Positions 20,216 through 53,489 of a DNA stretch of 64,000 nucleotides are shown in pieces. The stretch spans positions 1-64,000 of the forward strand of contig JAFKAC010000010.1 in NCBI GenBank assembly GCA_025766275.1. Reading direction: 5' to 3'. The stretch's first letter is position 1, and each line of letters starts with the position of its first letter. A program made the position numbers and the translations under genes. The notes below the pieces were generated by a model. The model saw nothing but the letters and a program-made list of their open reading frames with translations, did not search any database and was not told where the DNA came from. This DNA comes from Lactarius indigo (Eukaryota; Basidiomycota; Agaricomycetes; Russulales; Russulaceae).

Positions 20216-21425
20216 CTATATGTACATTTCCATACTGGAATATCTGCACATGTTTTCCACTTACTACTTAATATTCTCCTGTACTAATCTATCATTTGTT
20301 GACCAGTAGTATGTGCATATGAGCTTCAGGATATCCACACTTCCACAACCATATTCAAGTCCTGTAAACACCTGCAATGTCTATAGAGATCTTATGGGGT
20401 TAAACCACCAATTGAAAGATTGGGGACCCATTTATATCTCTACACATCCAATTAGGAAGTCCTGTTGTATATCCTTATGAGGTCCCTATCCTGTATTCAC
20501 CTTATTTACTCCCCTGTATTTCCTTTCACTGACACCCACTAGCCTGCATTTGTATGTATTCACAAGCGGGAACTCCACTCTAGCTCACTGTGCCTTGGCT
20601 CTGTCTGTTGTCTCTGACACTTATAAGCAGTCACCACATACTTGTGATCAAATATTCCATTCTGCTCATTTTATTGAATATAGATGACCTCTGGATACTC
20701 CACATAGACTAGTAGCCTCTATGACCTCAATGCATTTCCATTCTATTTATGAAATCCGTTGGAGATCCCCGACTATTTCCAACCCACCTATCGTCAGTTA
20801 CACTATCAATTATCAGAGATGTCCTGATTGGTATATTCTTATTAGATAACCTCTGAATAGACCACATAGTAGCCTCTATGATCTCTGTTCATTTATATTT
20901 TACTTATGATGACCCTCAGAGATCCCCAACTATCTCTGACCCACCTGTCATCAATTAGACTATCAATTATAGCAGGTGTCCCAATTGGTATATTATTATT
21001 AGATATTCTCCCTAATATGCATAGACTATCAATTGACAGTCACCTGTGATCAGACACTCCTTATGTATTCTGTTTCACTTGTATTCATTTGATGTGCTTG
21101 CACATATCTGAGTGGATGATCTTATATGCCTGGGTCTTGCTCCTTTGATTGATTACACATCACCTTTGGATACTACACATATAATACCCACCTCTAAGCC
21201 TTTCTATTCTGTGTTTGAGTAACCCATCAATCCCCAACTATTCCTGACTATCTCCGACCCAGCCGATGTCAGTTAGAGTATCAATTATGGCAGAATCTCC
21301 GCCGTTGGCCAGCACTGGCTGAGTATGAACTATTAAAGAATCTCACCATCAGTTGGGGGTATCAATTACATAAGCCACCACTGATCATTATGTGACCCAG
21401 CACAGGTCCTTGTGCCTGAAGGGTT
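20216..21425. repeat. AT-rich stretch with 2-3 degenerate copies of a roughly 160-bp tandem repeat
   Basis: No gene seen. Phrases recur in order: acctctg.ata..ccacata...tagcctctatga (20,688; 20,850; weakly 21,175), gagatcccc.actat.tc...acccacc (20,763; 20,918; 21,230) and tatcaattat (20,807; 20,967; 21,277). The first two copies are about 160 bp apart, the third about 320 bp further. The stretch is clearly more AT-rich than its neighbours, as expected of old mutated repeat DNA. Confidence 0.6.
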
Positions 21426-24007: not shown

Positions 24008-27000
24008 CTACATAAATGTGGTTTCGACCAAAGACTGAGACTGTACTAAAGGCGTGACCGGGTATTATCTGAACAAATATAAGAACAAACAAACCAAATC
24101 AGTGGCCATAATAAAGGCTGCAAATGACTCGTCGGAATGTTCATGAGAAGGTGCAGTAAGGTGTTGTCGAATCTTCAGGTCAATATTTGCCTTGCAATAT
24201 TTGGTGTTCGCACTCGTTAAAGCTGATTTAGTTGACTTGTTTGAGAGAGATAGGAAAGTCGCATGCTTCAAGATGATGATAACCGCTTTAACAAAACGTT
24301 AAATAGGCGCTAAAAATAATAACGTGAAATACCAAGGATCAAATGATAATCGACAGCAAGACCGGTGGCGGTAAGCTAAAAAGATAAAAGTCATAAGCTA
24401 GGGGTAGATGAGTGTCATACAGAGAGAACACCTTTCGAATGGCGGGAAGTGACATCGTCCGCACTACCTGACGGACAGGTGAGATTTTTTGGTTGGGGGA
24501 GCATACAGAGAGCACATACAAACTGGAGAACCAAAGGTGAATGGTATTAGCAGGCTAGAATGGGGAGCATGCACGCACACGCTAGTTAATCAGGGACGAG
24601 TACGATCAATGGCAGAGTCAAAGACAGGGATGATCAACACGCAAAAAATGCAGAAAAGCCAGCAGAAACTCACATCCTGAGGATCCGAGGGCGAGAGTCG
24701 TCAGCAGGCGCAATACACAGCGACATATGACAGCCACTCACCATCTGGAGAGCCAAGGAGAGCTGTTGTCAGCAGACTCGAAACATAGGGAGATACACCA
24801 GCGACTCACATTCTGGAGAGTGGAGGACAGGCGTCATCAGCAGGCCCGGAACACAGCAAGGAACTGCAGCCACTCACTCGCTGGAAAGCCCAGGACAGGC
24901 GTCATCAGCAGGCTCGAAACGCACCAAGCCATGGCAGCCACTCACTTTCTGGAGAGCCGAGGACAGCCATCGTCAGCAGGCTCGAAACACAGAGACACAC
25001 AGCAGCCGCTCACCGACTGGACAGATGAGGACAGCCATAGTCAGCAGGCTCGAAACACAGTGACACACAGCAGCCACTCACTTCCTGGACAGACGAGGAC
25101 AGCGGTCGTCAGCAGGCTTGAAACACAGCAACACACAGCAGCCACTCACATCCTGGACAGACGAGGACAGCCGTCGTCAGCAGGCTCGAAACACAGCGAC
25201 ACACAGCAGCCACTCACAGCCTGGACAGACGAGGACAGCCATCGTCAGCAAGCTCGAAACACAGCAACACACAGCAGCCACTCACTTCCTGGACAGACGA
25301 GGACAGCCATCTTCAGCAGGCTCGACACACAGCGACACACAGCAGCCACTCACTCTCTGGACAGACGAGGACAGCCGTCGTCAGCAGGGTCAAAACACAG
25401 CGACATACAGCAGCCACTCACCAACTGGACAGACGAGGACAGTCATTGTCAGCAGGCTCGAAACACAGCGACACACAACAGCCACTCACCATCTGGACAG
25501 ACGAGGACAGCCGTCGTCAGCAGGTTCGAAACACAGCGATACACAGCAGCCACTCACAGGCTGGACAGACGAGGACAACCATCGTCAGCAGGCTCAAAAC
25601 ACAGCGACACACAGCAGCCACTCACACCCTGGACAGACGACGACAGCAATTGTCAGCAGGCTCGAAACACAGCGACACACAGCAGCCACTCACCGACTGG
25701 ACAGACGAGGACAGCCATAGTCAGCAGGCTCAAAACACAGCAACACACAACAGCCACTCACCAACTGGACAGACGAGGACAGCCATCGTCAGCAGGCTCA
25801 AAACACAGCGACACACAGCAGCCACTCACATCCTGGACAGACGAGAACAGCCATCGTCAGCAGGCTCAAAACACAGCGACACACAACAGCCACTCACTCT
25901 CTGGACAGACGAGGACAGCCGTCGTCAGCAGGTTCGAAACACAGCGAAACACAGCAGCCACTCACCAACTGGACAGACGAGGACAGCCATCATCAGCAGG
26001 CTTGAAACACAGCGACACACAGCAGCCACTCACTCTCTGGACAGACGAGGACAGCGATTGTCAGCAGGCTCAAAACACAGCAACACACAGCAGCCACTCA
26101 CTTCCTGGACAGACGAGGACAGCCATAGTCAGCAGGCTCGAAACACAGCGACACACAGCAGCCGCTCACCATCTGGACAGACGAGGACAGCCATCGTCAG
26201 CAGGTTCGAAACACAGCGACACACAGCAGCCACTCACATCCTGAACAGACGAGGACAGCCATCGTCAGCAGGCTCGAAACACAGCGACACACAGCAGCCA
26301 CTCACCAACTGGACAGATGAGGACAGCCATCGTCAGCAGGCTCGAAACACAGCGACACACAGCAGCTACTCACATCCTGAACAGACGAGAACAGCCATCG
26401 TTAGCAGGGTCAAAACACAGCGACACACAGCAGCCACTCACCAACTGGACAGATGAGGACAGCGATTGTCAGCAGGTTCGAAACACAGCGACACACAGCA
26501 GCCACTCACATCCTGGACAGACGAGGACAGCCATCATCAGCAGGCTCAAAACACAGCGACACACAACAGCCACTCACTTCCTGGACAGACGAGGACAGCC
26601 GTCGTCAGCAGGTTCGAAACAAAGCGACACACAGCAGCCACTCACCAACTGGACAGACGAGGACAGCCATCGTCAGCAGACTCGAAACTGTGAGTAAGGG
26701 CTGACACTCACCCACTAGTAGTCCGCGGCATCAAGGATCATGAATCCTTTACCACAACTTAATACTATTAATACTTACCCAGATGCGTGGAAACGCCCAA
26801 AGACATTCCTGGATTATATCTTCGACCTTGGTGCTATTATGCGAACGGACACTGCAATGCTTGTTATCATCGACGCTCACTTTGCCCCTTCAATTGGTGT
26901 ACTCACCGTTTCAAAGCTGCTTTAACACCGAATTCTAAGTTTCCCCTTTGCACCGCCAAAAGCATCAATCCGACGATGTCGTCATTCAATGCTGCAGCTG

Positions 27001-34818: not shown

Positions 34819-37800
34819 ATGGAATCGAATTCACAACCTGCAACTGATATGGACGATCAAGCTCAGTTAGTCGAACAACTTCCACGTGAACATAGGCTGA
34901 CCGGTTTGCGTACAGATATATTGATTTGAAAGGTATATGGGACCTACCATTTCTCCTGAGCAGAATTGATGTTCGCATAGAAATATCTATCGATTTTATC
35001 GAGACACGTCCTACATCCGACCTCGAGCTCGTTTTCAAGGACGATGCCGGTGTCAAATACAAGTCTAACAAATTCAAGAACGGTGTCCATATTCTTTGGA
35101 AACCCGACATGTTCGTGTCATTAGCCGTGTCTTCCCTCACCATCGAATACTAGTTTTCTTCGCACAGCCATGTTAGGGCCCGCACCAGTGCTACGTTGAC
35201 CATCCAGCGAGCGCGTTTCAAAATAATGGCTGCCGACATTTCGGTCAAGTTTAAGCTAGACAGGTTTGGAGACAACAACGTCGTCTGTCTGGAAGGTGAC
35301 CTCTGTTCCTAGTACCATCCACTTCATGCTTAGAGGCTTCACAGATAGCAACCGTCGCGTTACCGTGACTATGGTGTATGGGGATCCTAAACCTGTAGGT
35401 CTTTGATTGTTTCCTGGTGCCAGAAAGCCATTGATTCCCCCTATAGTTAGCAGGCGTCACTCGCGTTCTTGGCTTTTGGCCCACCTTCTCAAACGCTGTC
35501 ATCCAGAAACACCGCCGTCGAATTCCAGAAGTCCAGTTCCGGGTGCTTATTATAGGAAGGGCAAATGCAGGAAAAACGTCTATCCTACAGAGAATATGCG
35601 AAACGACAGAGAGCCCCGTCATTTACCGAGGAAGGGAGGAGGTGCGTAGTCCAACCTTTTCGTCTGTGAATGTGATCTCACTTCCGACCAGGTTAGACTC
35701 GATCCGTCCATGGACGTTAGTGATAACAGTTCTTCTCTTCGGTTGCCTCTAAAGATGGATCCAGAGAGGCGAGCACAGAATCGACGATGAACTCGTGTTC
35801 TCCAATCATAAGGGCTACGTTTTCCATGACTCTTGCGGAATTGAGTCAGGTAGCGGCGAGGAACTCATGGTTCTGCAAAAATTCATTCGACGCAAGTGTG
35901 GAGAAAGGCGGCTGCAAGATAGATTGCATGCGATATGGTTTGAAGTCTCGAATGTTCACGATTACGACAACTGACAGTCACACTATTTTGAGGTATTGTA
36001 TCCCAATGGACAACCAACGACCCCAGCTCGATCTCAAATTTTTTAAGGACATCTGTCCTGACCGGAATGGTGCGTCATTACGCACATTCGTGACTGTATT
36101 CAATAGAGTAATTTCCAGTCCCTGTGATTGCCGTGTTTACAAAATACGACCAATTCCGCCGAAATGTCCGAATCCATGTGGAGGATTTTGGAAGCCCAGA
36201 TGACAATGTGTCCGATGTGGCGGAGAAAAGGTTTGAAGAGCACTACCTACATCTTCTTAGTGGTGATGTTAAATTCGTGCGTTTAGAACGTAAGTTGAGA
36301 GGCAAATACCAGAGATAGGAGCTAATGCTTTTGGGTAGAAATGCATAGGAAACATATGGGTTGCGATAAGCTCATTGAGACGACAGCCGCAGCTTTGAAC
36401 GATGAAAGCATCGCATTGATGCTCTTGGTTTTACAGAGGGGTAATTTAGAATTAAGTGTTAAATCAGCTTTGCAGCGGTGAGTGTGCCAATTGAAGGGGG
36501 AAAGTGAGCGATGATGATAACAAGCATCGCAGTACCCGTTACCATCGTGGCATGGGGTTCGAAGAAATAGTTCAAGCATGTCTCGTCCCGTTTCCATACA
36601 TCTGGGTAAGTATCAATAAAGTGTTAATTATGGTGCTGGATTCATGATCCTTGATACCACCTAACTACTAGTGGGTGAGTGTCAGCTCTTACTCACAGTT
36701 TCGAGATCAAATAACCGGGCCATGTCGGTGCACTGCACTCCAGGAAGTGAGTGACTGCCATGGCTCTGTGTTTCGAGCCTGCTGACGACGGCTGTCCTCG
36801 GCTGGCCAGAAAGTGAGTGGCTACCGTTTCTCGCTGTATTTAGAACCTGCTGATAATGGTTGTCGTCCGCTCTCCAGTTTGTGAGTGGCCGCCATGGCTC
36901 GCTGTGTTCCGAGCTCGCTGACAACGGCTGTCCTGGGCTCTCCAGTCGGTGAGTGGCTGCTGATTCTCACTATATTTTGGGCCAGCTGACGACAACCGTC
37001 CTCTGCACTCTAGGAAGTGAGCAGGACCCATAGCTCGCTATTTTTTGAGCCTGCTGACGATGCCTGTCCTCGGTTGTCCAGGAAGTGAGTGGTTGCCATG
37101 GCACGCTGTGTTTCGAGCCTGCTGACGATGCTTGTCCTCGGTTCTTCAGTCGGTGAGTGGCTGCTGTGGGTCGCTTCATTTCGAGCCTGCTGATGACGGC
37201 TGTCTTCGGCTGTCCAGTTGGTGAGTAGGTTACGTGGCTCACTGTATTTAGAGCCCGCTGACAACAGCTGTCCTGGGCTCCCAAGTCTGTGAGTGGCTGC
37301 AGTGACTCACTGTATTTCAAGCCCGCTGACGGCGGCTATCCTCGGCTCTCCAGGAAGTGAGTTACTGGTATGACCCTCTGTGTTTCGAGCATGCTGACAA
37401 CGGCTGCTCTCGGTTTTCCAGGGAGTGAGTGGCTGTATTGGTTCACTATGTTTCGAGCCTGCTGACAACGGCTGTCTGCGGTTCTCGAGTTGGTGAGTAG
37501 CCGCCGTGGCTCGCTGTGTTTCGAGCCTGCTAACGATGACTGTCTTCGGCTGTCTAGGAAGTGAGTGGCTTCCATGGCTTGCTGTGTATCAAGGCTGCTA
37601 ACGACGACTCTCCTCGGTTCTCCAGTTCGTGAGTGGCCACTATGGCTTGCCATGTTTCAAGCCCGCTGACGATGCCTGTCTTCAACTCTCCAGTCGGTTA
37701 GTGGCATGGCTCGCCGTATTTCAAACCTGCTGACGATGCTTGTACTCGGCTCTGCAGTCGGTGAGTGGCTGCCGTGGCTCCTTGTGTCTTGAGCCTGCTA

Positions 37801-39165
37801 ACGATGGCTGTCTTCGGCTGTCCAGAGAGTGAGTGGCTGCTGTGGCTCGCCATGTTTCAAGCCTGCTGACGACGGCTTTCCTCGACTCTCCAGTCAGTGA
37901 GTGGGGGCCGTTTCTCATTGTGTTTATAGTATGCTGATGACGGTTGCCCACTACTCTCCAGTCGGTGAGTGGCCGCCGTGGCTCGCTGTGTTTGGAGCCT
38001 ACTGACGATGGCTGTCCTCTCTTCTCCAGTTCGTGAGTGGCTACCATTTCTCACTCTGTTTCGAGCCTGCTGACGACCCCCGTCCTTGGCTCTCCAGCTG
38101 GTGAGTGGCTGCCATGGCTCGCTGTATTTCGAGCCTGCTGACGACGGCTGTCCTCGGCTGTCCAGGAGGTGAGTGACTGCTGTGGCTCGCTGTGCTTCGA
38201 GCCTACTGACAACGGCTATCCTCGGCTGTCCAGGAAGTGAGTGGTTGCTGTTACTCGCGGTGTTTCGAGCTTGCTGACGACAGCTATCCTCGGCTCTCCA
38301 GGAAGTGAGTTGCGGCTGCTGTTGTTCGCTGTATTTCGAGCCTGTTGACGATGGCTTTCCTCGGCCGTCCAGTTTGTGAGTGGTTGCCATGACTCACTGT
38401 GTTTCGAACTTGCTGATGACAGTTGTTCTCGGCTTTCCAGTTCGTGAGTGGCTGCCGTGGATTGCTGTTTTTTGAGCTTGCTGACGACACTCGCCCTCGG
38501 CTCTTCAGGACGTGAGTTGCTGTATTCTTTCTGCGTTTTTTACCTGATGATCATGTCTGTCTTTGACTCTCCATTGATCGTCCTCATCTCTGATCATCTA
38601 GCGCGTGCGTGTATTCCGAGTCTTTCCTTTTTAATCTGCTAAGGTCTTCACCTGGACCTTCAGTTCGTAAGTGCTCTCTATATGGTCGCTTAACCAAAAC
38701 GCTCACTTCTCCATCAGCGAAGGCAGATTATTTCACTGCCCACCGTTCGAAATGTGTTCTCTTTGTATTACTCTCATTTATCCCTCGCCTTATGATTTTA
38801 TTTCTCTAGCTCACTGCCACCGTTGATTATCATTTGATTCTTGGTATTTCACTCTAAGATTCTCAGCGCCTATTTAACTTTTTGTCAAAGCTGTTATCCT
38901 CATCTTGAAGCACGCCACATTCTTACGCCTCTCAAATATGTCACCTGAATTAGCTTTAACCCACGCAGAGGTCGACTATCAGGAGGAAAATATCGACCTG
39001 AAGATTCAACAACACCTTGCCGCATCTTCCGAAGAGCATTCCGACGAGTCATTGGCAGCCTTTATTATGGCCACTGATTTGGTTCGTTTGTTCTTATACT
39101 TGTTGAGATATCTCGTCAAGCCTTTATTTCAGTCTCAGTCTTCGATCGAAACCACTTTTGTATAG
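34819..39165 (+). CDS. C2-like + P-loop GTPase gene, copy B, with single-codon exon array
   Basis: ATG at 34,819 (MESNSQPATDMDDQAQLVEQ). C2-like exon LPFLLSRIDVRIEISIDFIE (about 34,950). GTPase G1 VLIIGRANAGKTSILQRICE (about 35,545-35,605), G3 FHDSCGIE (about 35,828), G4 FTKYDQF (about 36,132). Introns have GT...AG ends at positions equivalent to copy C, and the domain can be read without stops. An exon ending VPFPYIW in phase 0 leads into the array (36,672-38,511, 28 triplets). Two further triplets follow, then exons SLPTVRN, LTATVDYHLIL and VILILKHATFLRLS, and the stop at 39,163-39,165. This copy is the most diverged in its array, yet frame and splice signals hold, which argues for function. 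Molecular role unknown. Confidence 0.78.
36672..38511 (+). repeat. Array B: 28 single-codon triplets in diverged 68-bp intron units
   Basis: Unit bodies differ at many positions, with a few indels, yet 26 of 28 units start GTGAGT (others GTTAGT and GTGAGC), nearly all have CTGAC, CTGAT or CTAAC at the branch position, and 26 of 28 end in CAG or TAG (exceptions AAG near 37,285 and GAG near 37,490). Triplets are all sense codons: Glu 8, Ser 7, Phe 5, Leu 3 and single Trp, Lys, Gly, Arg, Asp and so on. Antisense frames are broken into short pieces here, unlike in arrays A and C. Confidence 0.88.
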
Positions 39166-45939: not shown

Positions 45940-46560
45940 CCTACGATGGTGGGAGATAGATCAGATGATTGAGACGTTGCTGTATTGCACCGAAAATAAT
46001 GTTTACCCAACCTGATCGACCTGGCCGCAGTCCATCGGAATCGGTTAGAACAGTGACAACGGATACGGCTGATATAATGCGACAGTCTGCGCCTCTGCTC
46101 GGCCCATATACCATGTAAAAGCGGAGGAGTGAGCTGGTACCGGGTCGGGGAGCGGGAGCGTAGCGTCATGGTCATGGGGCGGAGGAGCTTCAGACAGGTA
46201 TATGGATTCTTGCGCGGCACCGAGAATTCGAGAGAGAAGGGATGCAGTGGCATGGAGATGGAAGGCACGTACCAATCTTGTTAAGCCCGAGCCGAACCGT
46301 TTTCCCACCACCTCGTGCCCACGCACGTCCTCCTTGACTGGCCAGTTGCGGCGGACCGTGCGCGCGTCAAGCACGAGCAATACGGTGGCGAGCTTGTGGA
46401 TGTAGAGCTGCTACTACAACTGCTCCTTCATCTTGCCGCTCCTGGCAGGTGCCAACTCCGACGCAGCAGATAGGATGTCGCGCATGGAGGGGAAAGCCGC
46501 TAGCTACACGAGCGACAAGAGTCTGGGCTTGACGTCGTCGCGTCTTGGTGACGCGGGTTA
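45940..46560 (-). pseudogene. hyp1, copy C
   Basis: Minus pieces in order: GFPSMRDILSAASELAPARS (about 46,495-46,440), HKLATVLLVLDARTVRRNWP (about 46,405-46,345), ASLLSRILGAAQESIYLSEA (about 46,240-46,190) and FTWYMGRAEAQTVALYQPYP (about 46,120-46,060). Same layout as copies A and B; divergent from GTPase gene C. Frames are joined by intron-like gaps, so it could be a real gene, but TAG after the first piece suggests decay. Confidence 0.4.
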
Positions 46561-47149
46561 CGCCGCGGAGACTGGGAAGAACTGATCAGTAGTTAGGTCA
46601 GTAAGTAAGATAGAGAGGATGATGCTCTCTTTGCATGGCTGACCCAGAGGTCGGTAGGCGGGCACCTGGGTCCTTTTTCGAGTTCTGAGCCAGACCGATG
46701 TCCTAAGCGAAGATAATTGGGTACTCACTTCATTTGAGGGGTAGGCTTATTTTGTCTTTTAAAGCTTTGCGTGGGTTATTGAGGCGGTTACAAGGTCGAT
46801 TGAGGGAGGTATTGTCGAGCTGACTGTGTCTGATGAATTAGTGTGAACGAAAGTAATGAAAAACTTTTGATATTAAAAAGGAACTCCAACGACCATAAGT
46901 CAATCCAATCGGCGTGGTCTCGTCGGAGGGTTGACCGTTCCAGCAGGTTGTCGGGTCGTCATAGACGAGAAAGTGGGAATAGAACGGCGGGCGCTTCTTG
47001 AGTGCACTGGGTTCACACGTGCGTGTCTCTCACGGCTTTTTTGTGTCTGTCTGTTGACTTCCATCCGTCGCTCCTACATCCACCTTTGCTTCATCAGAGC
47101 TCATCACACCGCACCCAAGCTTAGAAAACCAAATTCCATATATCTTGGG

Positions 47150-50100
47150 ATGGAATCGAATTCGCGATCTGTAACTGATATGGACGATCAAGCTCAGTTA
47201 GTCGAACAGCTTCCTTTTAAGCATAGGCTGACCGGTTCACGTACAGATATGTTAATTTGAAAGGTATATAGGTCTCACCATTTCTCCTGCAGTTCCTGAG
47301 TAGAATTGATGTTTGCATAGAAATATCTGTCGATTTTATTGAGACACGTCCTACATCCGACCTCGAGCTCGTTTTCAAGGACAATGCCGGTGTCAAATAC
47401 AAGTCTAACAAATTCAAGAACGGAGTCCCTATTCTTTGGGAACCTGAAATGTCTGTCGTATTTTCCCTCACCATTGAATATTAATTTTCTTCGCACAGCC
47501 ATGTTAGGACCCACACCAGTGCAACGTTGATCATCCAGCGAGCGCTTTTCAAAAAAAGGGTTGCTGAGATTTCGGTTGAGTTTGAGCCATACCTCGGAGA
47601 CTCCAAGGTTGCCCGTCTGGAAGGTGGGGGATCTCTTTCTCCTAGTACAGTCCACCTCACGCTAAGAGGCTTCACAGATAGCAACCGTCGTGTTACCGTA
47701 ACATTTGTGTACGGGAAACCTAAACCTGTGGGTCTTTGGTTGTTCTCTGGTACCAGCAAGCCGTTGAATTCCTCCTATAGGTGGCAGGTGCCACTCGGGT
47801 TCTTGGCCCTCGGCACACCTTCTCAAACACTGTCATCCGACAACATCGTCGTCAAATTCCAGAAATCCAGTTCCGAGTACTTATTATAGGAAGGGCAAAT
47901 GCGGGGAAAACATCGATTCTGCAGAGAATATGTGAAACTACAGAGAGCCCTGTCATTCATAGAGGAAGGGAGGAGGTACGTAGTCCAACCATTTCGTCTG
48001 TGAATGTGACCTCACTTCCGATCAGGTCAGACTCGACCCGTCCATGGACGTTAGTGATAATAGTATTACCTCTCTTCTTTGCCTCTAAACATGGAGTTAG
48101 CGAGGCGAGCACACGATCGACGACGAACTCGTGTTCTCTAATAATAAGGGCTACATTTTCCATGACTCTCGCGGTATTGAGTCTGGTAGCGAAGACGAAC
48201 TCCGGATTTTGCAGGGATTTATTCGACGCAAGTGTGGAGAAGGGCGACTGCGAGACAGATTACATGCGATATGGTTTGGACTTTCGAGTGCTCACGGCTA
48301 CGCCAGCTGACGATCATATTATTTGGAGGTACTGTGTCCCAATGGACAACCAACGACCACAGCTCGATCTGAGGTTTGTCAAGGACATCTGTCCTGATGG
48401 GAATGGTGCGTCATCACGGACGTTCGTGACTGTATTAACAAAATCATTTTCAGTGCCTGTCGTTGTCGTGTTTACAAAATATGATCAATTCCTACGAAAT
48501 GTCCAAATTCATGTGGAGGATTTCGGAAGCCCAGATGACAACGTGTCTGATGTAGCAGAAGAACAATTTGAAGAGCACTACTTGCGTGCACTTGATGATG
48601 GTGTTAGATTCGTGAGATTAGAAAGTGGGTTGAAAGGCAAATATGGAGTTAGTGCTAACGGTTTTGGGCAGAAATGCACAAGCAAAGTATGGGCTGCGAT
48701 AAGCTTATTGAGACGACAGCTGCAGCATTGAATGACGACATCGTCGGATTGATGCTTTTGGCAGTGCAAAGGGGCAACTTAGGATTGAGTATTAAACTAG
48801 CTTTGGAGCGGTGAGTGCGCCAATCGAAAGAGAAAAGTGAGCGTCGATGATAACAAGCGTTGCAGTGTCCGTTCGCATATTAATAGCACCGAGGTCGAAT
48901 ATATAATTCGGGAATGTCTTAGGTCGTTTCCACGTATCTGGGTACGTATTAACAGTATTAAATTGTGGTAAAGGATTCATGATCCTCGATGCCGCTTAAC
49001 TACTAGTTGGTGAGTGTCAGCCCTTACTCACATTTCGGGCCTGCTGACGATGGCTGTCCTCGTCTGTCCAGAGAGTGAGTGGCTCTTGTGTGTCGCTGTG
49101 ATTCGAGCCTGCTGACGATGGCTATCCTCGTCTGTCCAGGATGTGAGTGGTTGCTGTGGCTCGCTGTGTTTCGAGCCTGCTGACGATGACTGTCCTCGTC
49201 TGTCCAGTTGGTGAGTGGCTGCTATGTGTTGCTGTGTTTCGAGCTTGCTGACGATGGCTGTCCTCGTCTGTCCAGGATGTGAGTGGCTGCTGTGTGTCGC
49301 TGTGTTTCGAGCTTGCTGACGATGGCTGTCCTCGTCTGTCCAGAGAGTGAGTGGCTGCTGTGTGTTGCTGTGTTTCGAGCCTGCTGATGATGGGTGTCCT
49401 CGTCTGTCCAGGAAGTGAGTGGCTGCTGTGTGTCGCTGTGTTTCGAGCCTGCTGACGATGGCTGTCCTCGTCTGTCCAGGAAGTGAGTGGCTGCTGTGTG
49501 TCGCTGTTTCGAGCCTGCTGACGATGGCTGTCCTCGTCTGTCCAGAGAGTGAGTGGCTGCTGTGTGTCGCTGTATTTCGAGCCTGCTGACGATGGCTGTC
49601 CTCGTCTGTCCAGGATGTGAGTGGCTGCTGTGTGTCGCTGTGTTTCGAGCTTGCTGACGATGGCTGTCCTCGTCTGTCCAGAGAGTGAGTGGCTGCTATG
49701 TGTCGCTGTGTTTCGAGCTTGCTGACGATGGCTGTCCTCGTCTGTCCAGTTCGTGAGTAGCTGCTGTGTGTCGCTGTGTTTCGAGCCTGCTGATGATGGC
49801 TGTCCTCGTCTGTCCAGGATGTGAGTGGTTGCTGTGGCTCGCTGTGTTTTGAGCCTGCTGACGATGACTGTCCTCGTCTGTCCAGGATGTGAGTGGCTGC
49901 TGTGTGTCGCTGTGTTTCGAGCTTGCTGACGATGGCTGTCCTCATCTGTCCAGGAAGTGAGTGGCTGCTGTGTGTCGCTGTGTTTCGAGCCTGCTGACGA
50001 TGGCTGTCCTCGTCTGTCCAGTTGGTGAGTGGCTGCTGTGTGTCGCTGTGTTTCGAGCTTGCTGACGATGGCTGTCCTCGTCTTTCCAGTTCGTGAGTGG

Positions 50101-52529
50101 CTGCTGTGTGTTGCTGTGTTTCGAGCTTGCTGACGATGGCTGTCCTCGTCTGTCCAGTTGGTGAGTGGCTGCTGTGTGTCGCTGTGTTTCGAGCTTGCTG
50201 ACGATGGCTGTCCTCGTCTGTCCAGTTCGTGAGTAGCTGCTGTGTGTCGCTGTGTTTCGAGCCTGCTGACGATGGCTGTCCTCGTCTGTCCAGAGAGTGA
50301 GTGGCTGCTGTGTGTCGCTGTGTTTCGAGCCTGCTGATGATGGGTGTCCTCGTCTGTCCAGGAAGTGAGTGGCTGCTGTGTGTCGCTGTATTTCGAGCCT
50401 GCTGACGATGGCTGTCCTCGTCTTTCCAGGAAGTGAGTGGCTGCTGTGTGTCGCTGTGTTTCGAGCCTGCTGACGATGGCTGTCCTCGTCTGTCCAGTTC
50501 GTGAGTGGCTGCTGTGTGTCGCTGTGTTTCGAGCTTGCTGATGATGGCTGTCCTCGTCTTTCCAGTTGGTGAGTGGCTGCTGTGTGTCGCTGTGTTTCGA
50601 GCCTGCTGACGATGGCTGTCCTCGTCTGTCCAGAGAGTGAGTGGCTGCTGTGTGTTGCTGTGTTTCGAGCCTGCTGATGATGGGTGTCCTCGTCTGTCCA
50701 GGAAGTGAGTGGCTGCTGTGTGTCGCTGTGTTTCGAGCTTGCTGACGATGGCTGTCCTCGTCTTTCCAGGATGTGAGTGGCTGCTGTGTGTCGCTGTGTT
50801 TCGAGCTTGCTGACGATGGCTGTCCTCGTCTGTCCAGTTGGTGAGTGGCTGCTGTGTGTCGCTGTGTTTCGAGCTTGCTGATGATGGCTGTCCTCGTCTG
50901 TCCAGAGAGTGAGTGGCTCTTGTGTGTCGCTGTGATTCGAGCCTGCTGACGATGGCTGTCCTCGTCTGTCCAGGAAGTGAGTGGCTGCTGTGTGTCGCTG
51001 TGTTTCGAGCTTGCTGACGATGGCTGTCCTCGTCTGTCCAGGATGTGAGTGGTTGCTGTGGCTCGCTGTGTTTTGAGCCTGCTGACGATGGCTGTCCTCG
51101 TCTGTCCAGGAAGTGAGTGGCTGCTGTGTGTCGCTGTGTTTCGAGCCTGCTGACGATGGCTGTCCTCGTCTGTCCAGTTCGTGAGTGGCTGCTGTGTGTC
51201 GCTGTGTTTCGAGCTTGCTGATGATGGCTGTCCTCGTCTTTCCAGTTCGTGAGTGGCTGCTGTGTGTCGCTGTGTTTCGAGCCTGCTGACGATGGCTGTC
51301 CTCGTCTGTCCAGAGAGTGAGTGGCTGCTGTGTGTTGCTGTGTTTCGAGCCTGCTGATGATGGGTGTCCTCGTCTGTCCAGGAAGTGAGTGGCTGCTGTG
51401 TGTCGCTGTGTTTCGAGCCTGCTGACGATGGCTGTCCTCGTCTTTCCAGGATGTGAGTGGCTGCTGTGTGTCGCTGTGTTTCGAGCCTGCTGACGATGGC
51501 TGTCCTCGTCTGTCCAGTTGGTGAGTGGCTGCTGTGTGTCGCTGTGTTTCGAGCTTGCTGATGATGGCTGTCCTCGTCTGTCCAGTTGGTGAGTGGCTGC
51601 TGTGTGTCGCTGTGTTTCGAGCCTGCTGACGATGGCTGTCCTCGTCTGTCCAGGATGTGAGTGGTTGCTGTGGCTCGCTGTGTTTTGAGCCTGCTGACGA
51701 TGACTGTCCTCGTCTGTCCAGGTGGTGAGTGGCTGCTGTGTGTCGCTGTGTTTCGAGCCTGCTGACGATGGCTGTCCTCGTCTGTCCAGAGAGTGAGTGG
51801 CTGTCATATGTCGCTGTGTATCGCACCTGCTGATGGCTCTCGCCCTCGGATCCTCAGGATGTGAGTTTCTGTTGGCCTTTCCGCATCTTTTGCATGTTGA
51901 TCATCCCTGTCTTTGACTCTGCCATTGATCGTACTTGTCCCTGATCAACTAGCGCGTGCGTGCATGCTCCCCATTCTAGTCTGCTAATGCCATTCACCTT
52001 TGGTTCTCCAGGTTGTATGTGCTCTTTGTATGCTCCCCCAACCAAAAAATCTCACAGGTCCGTCAGGTTGTGTTCATGATGTCACTTCCCGCCATTCAAA
52101 ATGTATTCTCTTTCTATGACACCCATCTACCCCTAGCTTATTATGATTTTTATCTTTTTAGCTTACTGCCACCGGTCTTGCCGTTGATTATCATTTTATC
52201 CTTGGTATTTCACGTTATTATCTTTAGCGCCTATTTAACCTTTTGTCAAAGCGGTTATCATCATCTTGAAGCATGCGACTTTCCTATCTCTCTCAAGCAA
52301 ATCAACTGAATCAGCTTTAACCGGTGCGAACGCTGAATATTGCAAGGCCAATATTGACCTGAAGATTCGACAACACCTTACTGCACCTTCTCAAGAGCAT
52401 TCCGACGAGTCATTTGTGGCCTTTATTATGGCCACTGATTTGGTTCGTTTGTTCTTATATTTGTTAAGATAATACCCAGTCAACCCTTTAGTACAGTCTC
52501 AGTCTTCGGTCGAAACCACATTTACGTAG
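47150..52529 (+). CDS. C2-like + P-loop GTPase gene, copy C, with single-codon exon array
   Basis: ATG at 47,150 (MESNSRSVTDMDDQAQLVEQ). A C2-like part is built from RIDVCIEISVDFIETRPTSD, a 48-bp intron, and TLIIQRALFKKRVAEIS with VEFEPYLGDSKV. GTPase motifs: G1 VLIIGRANAGKTSILQRI (about 47,874-47,925), G3 IFHDSRGIESG (about 48,155-48,185), G4 FTKYDQF (about 48,470-48,490), with four short introns of correct ends. The next exons read TTAAALNDDIVGLMLLAVQR and RSHINSTEVEYIIRECLRSF, ending PRIW in phase 0. Then come 43 triplets of the array, two more triplets, and phase-0 exons MMSLPAIQN, LTATGLAVDYHFIL, VIIILKHATFLSLSSKS and ...FIMATDL; stop at 52,527-52,529. The N-terminal junction near 47,240 is unresolved. 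Role unknown. Confidence 0.8.
49007..51860 (+). repeat. Array C: 43 single-codon triplets in near-identical 68-bp intron units
   Basis: Triplets sit at exact 68-base steps (for example 49,072; 49,140; 49,208; 49,276), with one unit 4 bases short (about 49,500-49,545). Every unit starts GTGAGT, has TGCTGAC or TGCTGAT at the branch position and ends CTGTCCAG or CTTTCCAG. Triplets: GAT 10, AGA 9, GAA 9, TTG 8, TTC 6, GTG 1, so only Asp, Arg, Glu, Leu, Phe and one Val. The first residues read L R D L D R E E R D R F. Units elsewhere vary at only a few positions (C/T at TGTCGC, CCTGC/CTTGC, GAT/GAC). A 7-unit block is repeated 680 bp apart. Confidence 0.93.
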
Positions 52530-52774
52530 ATGAGATCATTGGTCTTCATACTGGGGTCGGAGGAACACCGCAAGGAAAGGTAAATAGATGTATGTATTAT
52601 CAAATGGTCCATGCATCATGTACTAGTAGTTGGACCATGTATGATGTGTACGATGAAACTTGATATCCCAGACTGTATTTTTCCCCATTCATTTGTCCGC
52701 TCGCCATTTAACCTGTCCCCCCCTCTATAGCTCCTGCTATTACTAGTCCATGTGACTATTATGGGTGCACATGT

Positions 52775-53285
52775 CTAGGCGGTCAAAGAGGTTGGTACAG
52801 ACACAGAACACACAGTGGTGGTGGGAGGTGCGCCGCTGGCTGCACCCATGTGGAAGGGCTTCTCGAACCCGTGGTCGAGCCTGGATACCCTTTTTGGGTC
52901 AGCACCAGGAGGCCGTGTGAGATGCACCGCACCGGATTGTGCGATTTCCCCGAAGCTCTGTCCTTGGAGTGTCTTGTCAGAGGTGTGGGGTAGGAGAAAG
53001 GACAGGAGAAGGGAGGCCAATTGGCATGTGTCTAATTGGGCATGTCGAAGTCTATCTCGTCAGTGGACAGGATGTTCATGAGTGCCATGGGTAGGAATGT
53101 ATATGGGGTTTTGTTCACCCCCTCGCAGATCAGCTTGAGTGGGTGGCGCTGTGAGAAACTGGCCTTCCTCGTCTTCTCTGCGTGTACTCAAGAGCTAGTG
53201 CGTGCGCTGTAGACATGTGGTTCCATCATTTGGTTTGGGGTCGCTAATGAAGAGACCATGATGGTGGTGATGTTATCGAGAAAGC
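52775..53285 (-). pseudogene. hyp2, copy C
   Basis: Minus pieces: TPNQMMEPHVYSARTSS then a stop, HAEKTRKASFSQRHPLKLIC, FLPMALMNILSTDEIDFDMP (about 53,110-53,045), and further on SFGEIAQSGAVHLTRPPGAD with DHGFEKPFHMG (about 52,960-52,850). Copies A and B share the same order. Convergent with GTPase gene C. The in-frame stop in the first piece argues against function of this copy. Family unknown. Confidence 0.45.
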
Positions 53286-53489
53286 AGACTCTTAAATGGG
53301 ACCTTCGTGTTCAGACCGAGGGTTGGACGAGCGGGGTGCATCAGAGTTAGTTAGTGTCATGTGAGGCACTGGCACGTTGAGTAGAATGTGGGTACTATGG
53401 GTCTGGCCCAGAAGTTCCCTGCATCAGTGGATGCATTCTGGGTAGAGATGACGATATCTCAAGCAGTGAGACCATGTACATGAAACTAC

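Follow-up and report, generated by a model that had tools for sequence, protein, structure and literature searches.

Tandem single-codon exons are probably spliced stepwise into a segment of a GTPase-like protein in Lactarius indigo

The spliceosome is generally believed to have difficulty with very small exons. Isolated exons of 1 to 6 nt show that splicing at this scale can occur, and the available parts of the literature describe a spliced 1-nt exon in Arabidopsis APC11 (PMC4674806) and a 3-bp exon in Drosophila homothorax (PMC7392893), each lying singly between ordinary exons. Many short symmetric exons in series are found in the schistosome micro-exon genes, which carry ~80% of their coding region in exons of 6–36 bp and are thought to generate protein variation (PMC5825161, as far as its available text goes). 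According to the portion available of PMC9168663, the bicycle and megacycle genes of aphids evolve rapidly and contain many small internal exons, with more than 100 microexons in megacycle. Recursive splicing in Drosophila, as presented in the accessible part of PMC8605326, uses an acceptor adjoining a donor, removes the intron stepwise and, at RS-exons, lets the regenerated donor compete with the exon's own. Finally, introners or introner-like elements are introns multiplied in many genomic copies, fungi included (available parts of PMC9860276 and PMC4457414).

We analyzed a 64-kb stretch of the Lactarius indigo genome, hereafter the window, in which a preliminary description had placed about 43 consecutive 3-nt exons within a 68-bp repeat at 49,007–51,860. 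This repeat, array C, was confirmed: 43 triplets are each bounded by YAG on the left and GTGAGT on the right, with a spacing of 68 nt in 40 of 42 steps (the two others measure 65 and 66 nt), and Tandem Repeats Finder returned a 68-bp unit with 41.2 copies and 91% matches. The preceding exon indeed ends in phase 0 with PRIW (CCA CGT ATC TGG, then GTACGT). The single long exon said to follow the array was correct as to the in-frame continuation but not as to its structure, as the frame passes through a last single-codon exon (GTT) and then three separate exons (Table 1). Gene C totals 44 predicted single-codon exons, or 132 nt. A loose scan admitting weak donors gave TGA triplets (AAG followed by TGA, with the frame shifted), which were discarded when the scored scan restored CAG-GAA-GTGAGT. 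Retention of array C as coding sequence was ruled out by 31–39 stops in each sense frame.

Table 1 Coordinates of the predicted single-codon-exon arrays and neighboring exons in the window.
Feature	Position	Strand	Description
Array A	24674..26714	-	31 single-codon exons; first = TGG, 26712-26714; predicted peptide WLEDLDLDMERLRDLSGPMLREADESKRNMD
Array A, last single-codon exon TTT	24520..24522	-	
Array B	36672..38511	+	28 single-codon exons, paralogous gene; predicted peptide WEKFSEESLSEGLEFSSRSSFLEEEFFD
Array B, last single-codon exon TTC	38664..38666	+	
Gene C, G-domain exons	47862-47975, 48026-48049, 48101-48273, 48329-48405	+	Joined in one frame
Gene C, G-domain exons, continued	48454-48624, 48672-48810, 48866-48941	+	One frame; last ends ...FPRIW, phase 0
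Array C	49007..51860	+	43 single-codon exons, 42 introns of ~65 nt (GTGAGT...TGCTGAC...YAG); predicted peptide LRDLDREERDRFDDELFLFREEFLREDLREDEFFREDLLDVRD
Gene C, last single-codon exon GTT	52012-52014	+	151-nt intron before, GTATGT after
Post-array exon VVFMMSLPAIQN	52067-52102	+	In frame
Post-array exon	52162-52204	+	In frame
Post-array exon AVIIILKHATFL...FIMATD	52252-52439	+	In frame

Our model of gene C is partial and leaves out the N-terminal exons (from about 47150) and those past 52439. An annotated Lactarius indigo protein (P0003) matches gene C at 100% over 67% of the query. We take GRANAGKTS, DSRG, and TKYD to be the G1, G3, and G4 motifs. PF01926 (MMR_HSR1) scored just below its cut-off on gene C (21.3 bits against 21.9; E 2.9e-4) and is present in many of its homologs; fold searches recovered the G domain and no firm family, and a PDB sequence search with P0095 gave no match. 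The counterpart of the exon at 52252–52439 is under purifying selection (pooled pN/pS 0.44 over 91 pairs from 14 loci).

The window holds two further arrays, A on the minus strand and B on the plus strand, the latter with strongly diverged introns and yet with its splice signals retained. Neither had been noticed in the preliminary description. Elsewhere in the window, on both strands, no chain of at least three units was found, and in 200 mononucleotide shuffles of the array-C stretch the chain never exceeded two. Genome-wide, with one mismatch allowed, unit starts numbered 1353, against six for the reversed pattern, and part of the places listed were followed. An array stands at the identical site of a GTPase-like gene in 38 of the 39 family places read in this genome, namely in all 23 for which the full locus was read and in 15 of the 16 with a partial reading, the one without it being L034 (in the 3.3 kb examined). 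The arrays comprise 14 to 67 units. A closing single-codon exon (TTT, TTC, TCT, ATT, or GTT) is present in 22 of the 23 fully read loci; in the exception, L053, the array reaches the edge of the stretch examined.

The triplet spacing was also recovered by a tally that did not presuppose it, although it was confined to the spans found by our scanner. Within the array spans of the 23 fully read loci, 824 of 842 GTRAGH donors have their nearest YAG exactly 3 nt upstream. The other 18 comprise 14 with AAG or GAG at that distance and four that are a second GTGAG within an intron, so that an AG lies 3 nt upstream of 838 of the 842. The triplets of exactly 3 nt number 859, and three unit boundaries (in L049, L053, and L057) are something other than a plain triplet.

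No stop codon occurs among all 1123 triplets. The 859 triplets of 26 array segments would be expected to contain 113.5 stops from their own positional composition; when one array per near-identical set was kept (17 arrays, 623 triplets), none was observed against 75.2 expected, and the 264 triplets of 15 further loci are likewise free of stops. Three other codon classes are nearly absent: NAG (5 observed, 86.2 expected), GTN (8 against 91.8), and NGT (1 against 52.4). Each of these would introduce a competing splice site; NAG would form a second acceptor, and GTN would place a donor right at the acceptor. Lys, Glu, and Gln are encoded by NAG and NAA codons in a ratio of 5:168 in the arrays and 24:28 in the flanking exons of gene C (Fisher p 2e-13, with triplets that are not all independent). 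The splice signals persist where other positions have changed. In array B, conservation is 0.99 for the donor, 0.94 for CTGAC, and 0.94 for the acceptor, against 0.81 for the rest and 0.35–0.57 for the triplets. GTGAGT, CTGAC at intron position 38, and YAG are conserved in 24 array segments, diverged ones included, and the introns have the conserved donor, branch-point, and acceptor consensus of the U2-type GT-AG class, CTGAC presumably being the branch box. Since the triplets lack stops and avoid rival-site codons while the splice signals are conserved as the rest drifts, these patterns support a reading in which the arrays would be coding, codon by codon.

Proteins from short contigs provided a second line of evidence. 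We considered 32 homologous proteins labeled 'jgi' or 'lgn' among the matches listed. As their contigs measure 0.9–3.0 kb and carry intronless ORFs, we took them to be RNA-derived, the 'jgi' label alone having no RNA meaning; they very likely represent spliced RNAs of sister genes, so that the splicing would be that of relatives and not of this strain. Eighteen of the 32 have 28–61 residues exactly between both flanking exons, and the pooled composition of these peptides correlates at 0.86 with the genomic arrays and at 0.55 with the flanks, P0019, P0132, and P0139 being less array-like. Four others, P0057, P0151, P0058, and P0193, have 4, 7, 11, and 18 residues followed by VIGC, VSGC, or VSGH, which is the translated donor, and P0057 continues through a whole translated intron of 21 residues. 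In these partly spliced proteins the array is entered from its 5′ side, but a protein caller would end there anyway and so hide what lies downstream. In the remaining 10 there is neither a span across both flanks nor a unit intron, and P0052, P0155, and P0168 among them seemingly read straight into the first intron. The preliminary claim of in-frame single-codon exons between conserved introns of a GTPase gene is thus supported by the selection signatures, the sister loci, and these proteins.

Comparison of gene copies showed where change accumulates. Gene C and its copy L039 differ at 1 of 2722 sites in the upstream flank, at 10 of 2660 intron sites, and at 14 of 123 triplet bases, with six codons and five units changed. 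In seven pairs, the change per site in triplets and introns was 0.114/0.0038, 0.032/0.0070, 0.0115/0.0088, 0.0123/0.0028, 0.053/0.040, 0.022/0.051, and 0.317/0.046; two pairs clearly show hypervariability, which the other five, with a triplet rate 0.4–4.6 times the intron rate, do not. Two tests per array segment, on the following and the preceding intron, asked whether equal triplets share intron variants, as duplication of whole unit tiles would predict. For five of 24 segments (L045, L047, L050, L057, and array A) p was at most 0.015, and for the remaining 19 it exceeded 0.05. Introns of an array were closer to one another than to the nearest other array, as under concerted evolution, in L050 and L055 only (L039 was a tie). 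Support for the recombination step is therefore weak.

An array of this kind might be an intronic minisatellite grown from an intron-exon unit, removed as one 3-kb intron and contributing no peptide. Such a removal would join ATCTGG to the post-array exon in frame, it would suit the variable number of units, and in Lactarius tabidus the total skip is seen in one model, P0011 (PYIW-TEQVVSLPAIQ), although this is an annotated gene model only. A neutral satellite, however, would not hold 859 triplets free of stops, avoid NAG, GTN, and NGT, or conserve its donor, branch-point, and acceptor sites better than its other positions, and the 18 complete short-contig proteins have a peptide at the array site; we regard this explanation as highly improbable. 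Those proteins could alternatively derive from paralogs with one ordinary exon, the arrays here being decayed copies that are skipped or silent. L034, with no array in the stretch examined, would fit, but arrays fill the same site in all other family places, the post-array exon is under purifying selection, four RNA-like proteins pass from array-like residues into a translated array intron, and the pooled peptide composition tracks that of the arrays, which makes this origin very improbable as well.

We give next to no credence to a coding sense on the opposite strand. The 68-nt unit does form an open antisense frame, and array C is overlain by a minus-strand ORF of 932 aa (49028–51826), with merely three stops per minus frame; array B, however, has 17 stops in every antisense frame while keeping its sense splice signals, so that the openness of array C would be a by-product of a unit without antisense stops. 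A reading that accepts the exons is that splicing is stochastic or regulated, with different molecules skipping different units to yield very many in-frame isoforms, similar to Dscam at the grain of single codons. With 3-nt exons in phase 0, any donor can pair with any later acceptor without affecting the frame, and the sites within one array are nearly all alike. Yet the 18 complete peptides have the size of whole arrays (28–61 residues for 14–67 units) rather than that of heavily skipped ones, and no pair of isoforms from one gene was seen among the short-contig proteins in the matches listed. We consider such variable skipping rather unlikely.

Our preferred reading is that the single-codon exons are, with high probability, spliced into a segment of the GTPase, one amino acid each. 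The spliceosome would work through the ~65-nt introns successively in the 5′-to-3′ direction, each removal contributing one amino acid, and the resulting segment of 14 to 67 residues would join the G-domain half to the helical C-terminal half. Stepwise removal is likely, given that an acceptor and the next donor are just 3 nt apart, and it would resemble recursive splicing in which each ratchet leaves 3 nt behind. Since each unit pairs a complete codon with an intron of its own, units could be gained, lost, or exchanged without breaking the frame; it is plausible that the array serves to maintain hypervariability in one segment of the protein, and we infer a hypervariable linker between the G-domain half and the helical C-terminal domain. 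Somewhat short of an even bet is the broader idea of a codon-shuffling device in a large fungal GTPase family, in which single codons sit on interchangeable introns. Recombination between these introns, by unequal exchange or gene conversion, would generate new peptides of any length free of frameshifts and stops, and splicing would read them out stepwise into a segment that probably serves recognition of a changing partner.

If the arrays are spliced in this manner, dozens of genes in a single genome would each have 14 to 67 tiny exons joined in sequence with none lost, and the arrays would offer a natural system for testing intron definition and stepwise splicing. Assembly of a segment residue by residue through splicing would represent a novel means of building and varying a protein. 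Codons separated at the DNA level would allow a segment to be lengthened, shortened, or reshuffled without frame cost. Among the database models of the family that were read, most end ahead of the array, include its introns in the translation, or omit it, so that databases would for the most part lack the hypervariable portion of a large family of mushroom genes. No report of arrays of single-codon exons was found in the open-licence PMC literature.

The internal exons of the array segment are mostly very short and symmetric, as in micro-exon genes. However, where the schistosome exons are of mixed size and dominate the coding region, array C consists of 3-nt exons, dozens in tandem with one near-identical intron repeated, and accounts for 43 of the 390 codons of our partial model of a GTPase-like protein. 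Aphid bicycle genes differ in that their internal exons mostly start in phase 2, with ~17 exons on average, and the available text on bicycle and megacycle genes does not describe single-codon exons or repeated identical introns (PMC9168663). Introners, as portrayed in the available text, insert at many genes genome-wide, whereas the Lactarius copies examined form tandem runs in a single gene family, always at the one site, and every copy brings a codon of its own. The Drosophila ratchet serves long introns and leaves nothing or, for example, a 51-nt exon (PMC8605326, available part). In Lactarius, by comparison, three bases separate acceptor from donor, GTN, which would give a zero-length ratchet, being avoided, and one codon would be left per step, in arrays of 14–67 codons among short fungal introns.

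Gene C of the window, whose product we take from its G motifs to be P-loop GTPase-like, carries array C, in which each unit consists of an intron of ~65 nt (GTGAGT, a CTGAC branch-point-like box and YAG) and three bases. The preliminary description had placed a 68-bp repeat unit at ~49,007-51,860, with single codons between splice signals, and the triplets read in order indeed gave 43 codons and no stop: LRDLDREERDRFDDELFLFREEFLREDLREDEFFREDLLDVRD. Also as described, the pre-array exon ends in phase 0 (ATC TGG before GTACGT). The long phase-0 exon said to follow the array stands as an in-frame continuation but not as a single long exon, as a 3-nt exon, GTT, lies behind a longer intron and is followed by short ordinary exons in frame. 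Gene C therefore has 44 single-codon exons, the 43 array codons and the GTT exon.

Location of the arrays and other features discussed (L-numbers are family places in the same genome; C-numbers before a colon are contigs)
Feature	Location	Strand	Content
Array A	window	minus	31 codons + one; paralogous gene
Array B	window		28 codons + one; paralogous gene
Array C	window 49007-51860	plus	68-nt unit, tandem repeat
GTT exon of gene C	window 52012-52014		3 nt
Post-array exon of gene C	window 52251-52439		used as query
Gene C region	window 46229-53300		compared with L039
L039	C231:98000-106500		second copy of gene C region
Antisense ORF	window 49028-51826	minus	932 aa
L034	C223:315126-318395		no array in stretch read
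L053	C248:1649500-1657000		longest array, 67 triplets up to edge of stretch
Other repeat	window 20710-21005		157-bp unit x1.9, 80% matches; differs from array unit

When the 90.3-Mb assembly containing the window (G000:C2:1-64000) was queried with the pre-array exon, 23 places were found, the three window genes and 20 others, all of them with an array. An upstream exon ending TGG directly before GT was at the expected place in 23/23 loci, the final single-codon exon was seen in 22 (the array of L053 reaches the edge of the stretch), and an MSLP-type exon with an in-frame AG was recognised in 18. The G-domain query gave 59 matching stretches and 30 loci of ~3 kb, and 14 of these loci coincide with places already counted; in 15 of the 16 additional ones an array begins and continues for 17-19 triplets until the stretch ends, which makes 264 stop-free triplets altogether. 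Arrays are thus present at 38 of 39 family places, several of which are near-identical copies of one another, and L034 is the sole exception in the stretches read. The G-domain match of L034 contains an internal TAG. With one mismatch allowed, a short unit pattern had 1353 matches genome-wide, compared to 6 for the reversed control.

The array structure is real and is selected both as splice sites and as codons. The 23 loci together have 859 triplets, none of them a stop, where their position-specific composition predicts 113.5; the 623 triplets left when one array was kept per near-identical set likewise contain none (75.2 expected). The depleted codons are those that would disturb splicing: NAG, by creating a second acceptor (5 observed, 86.2 expected), GTN, by placing a donor directly against the acceptor (8 and 91.8), and NGT (1 and 52.4). 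Among Lys, Glu and Gln synonyms, the NAG:NAA ratio was 5:168 in the arrays compared to 24:28 in the flanking exons of gene C. For 824 of the 842 donors within array spans the distance from the nearest preceding YAG is exactly 3 nt, and for 14 others it is an AAG or GAG that precedes at this distance; three unit boundaries, in L049, L053 and L057, are off this rule. One boundary in L053 can be read as a 6-nt exon or as a shifted donor. The diverged arrays (L047-L049, L051, L052, L058 and array B) conserve the donor (0.91-0.99), the branch box (0.89-0.94) and the acceptor (0.93-0.98), and the remaining intron positions average 0.78-0.82. Neither this codon constraint nor these conserved splice signals would be required of a satellite that is excised whole as a single intron. 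Antisense coding was also considered, as a 932-aa ORF spans array C because the 68-nt unit has no antisense stops, but this ORF is not kept in array B and was rejected; an annotation pipeline could take it for a repeat protein.

An acceptor and the next donor could hardly be bound simultaneously, because they are 3 nt apart. Splicing of the first intron would instead leave a codon at the end of a long exon, the next donor would become usable once that codon was joined, and repetition would add one codon per splicing step. The scarcity of GTN and NAG fits such stepwise splicing, since with these codons a ratchet of zero length or a shifted acceptor would become available.

Proteins of relatives suggest that the single-codon exons are very probably expressed there. 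Among the homolog matches listed, 32 proteins from short contigs (source labels 'jgi' and 'lgn') were examined, and in 18 of them (15 by motif pattern, plus P0128, P0132 and P0139, which span without a pattern match) 28-61 residues join the flanking exons, for example YYYDLSDSDDFDLHLHHDDDDLLSDFSSFLSDFDDLDDDDFEPSVKH (P0143) and FLREERLESLEFEELDVQMESSEEMSELSLGSLFEELLRSLKSLNHFTAH (P0133), where the final few residues come from the next exon. These contigs are 914 to 3017 bases long, whereas the equivalent protein stretch in L. indigo takes several kilobases with many introns, so we infer that they are RNA. The pooled residue composition of the 18 peptides correlated at 0.86 with the genomic arrays and at 0.55 with the flanks; individual peptides differ in this respect, with P0019, P0132 and P0139 resembling the arrays less.

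The most telling of these products are four short-contig proteins, among the matches listed, that terminate within the array: P0057 (FFFN, then VIGC), P0151 (LNLFSSS, then VSGC), P0058 (LFEEEGDTFIE, then VSGC) and P0193 (VWKDKDFYEDDKDFNEEY, then VSGH). Judged from their sequences, the endings fit a translated donor such as GTGAGTGG(C), and the proteins look like products of RNAs in which 4-18 units have been spliced and the following intron is retained. P0057 continues VIGCCALLCFKPVDGTCHWIS, 21 residues that cover a full 65-nt unit in translation (one translated L. indigo unit is VSGCCVLLCFEPADDGCPRLS). These partly spliced forms are consistent with a 5'-to-3' order, of which a protein caller cannot show the downstream part. 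The other 10 of the 32, among the matches listed, end in the segment or enter other sequence; in P0052, P0155 and P0168 the reading seems to pass directly into the first intron.

Of 194 proteins scanned, 15 have a translated intron following the upstream exon, namely P0057 and 14 models that belong to five Lactarius species besides L. indigo (vividus, tabidus, hatsudake, sanguifluus and pseudohatsudake), as expected if annotators missed the single-codon exons. In two annotated Lactarius quietus proteins, P0066 and P0110, the upstream exon is followed by an array-like stretch (e.g., SWDEFDFEMEKDNFSELELFN in P0110), so array codons may already be present in a few databank models. Another annotated L. 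quietus protein, P0010, has two G domains in tandem, from a gene fusion or joined models. By protein matches, related proteins also occur in Galerina (P0038), Leucocoprinus (P0160, P0174) and Psilocybe (P0162); given these Agaricales members and the array-like segments of MSM-type short-contig proteins (P0136, P0138, P0140, P0141 and P0143), the arrangement may reach beyond Lactarius.

Protein matches identify the family as hypothetical proteins of Lactarius indigo, with P0003 100% identical across 67% of the gene C query, and the PF01926 score of the gene C protein is slightly below the cut-off. A query with the post-array exon found 48 places, 41 stop-free and 7 with one or two internal stops, and its pooled pN/pS over 14 array loci was 0.44 (91 pairs). 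This purifying selection downstream of the arrays means that this part must be reached in frame. In the predicted model of the homolog P0019, the putative segment (residues 283-343) has the G-domain half on one side and a helical C-terminal domain on the other, with pLDDT block means of 47-72 up to residue 330 and higher beyond; those of the predicted helical domain (residues 341-430) are 75-96. Whole-model fold matches were weak, with dynamin-like and immunity-related GTPases on top and G-alpha chains tied, so we claim no family.

Contig C231 carries a second copy of the gene C region, L039, and two copies of gene B, L051 and L052, which are either alleles of a dikaryon or recent segmental duplicates. 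Between gene C and L039, mismatches number 1 in 2722 bases upstream, 7 in 1311 bases downstream and 10 in 2660 paired intron positions, yet the arrays are 43 and 46 codons long, and they differ by 6 codon replacements (14 base changes) and by the gain or loss of 5 units. L040, L041 and L042, with upstream flanks 94% similar, have 14, 34 and 34 codons. Aligned to C, the codon string of L039 scored far above its own shuffles (32.6 vs 21.2) and that of L041 slightly above (17.2 vs a maximum of 16.6, 0/500), and those of L040 and L042 did no better than theirs (155/500 and 67/500 reach the score). Older pairs change slowly: a single synonymous change separates L051 from L052, and B differs from L052 by one synonymous change plus an indel of two units. 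This pattern suits fast turnover of units while arrays are young and constraint once they are old.

Searches of an open-licence library listed no case in which single-codon exons form an array. The nearest known things are tiny exons (PMC4674806), micro-exon genes, aphid bicycle genes, recursive splicing and introners.
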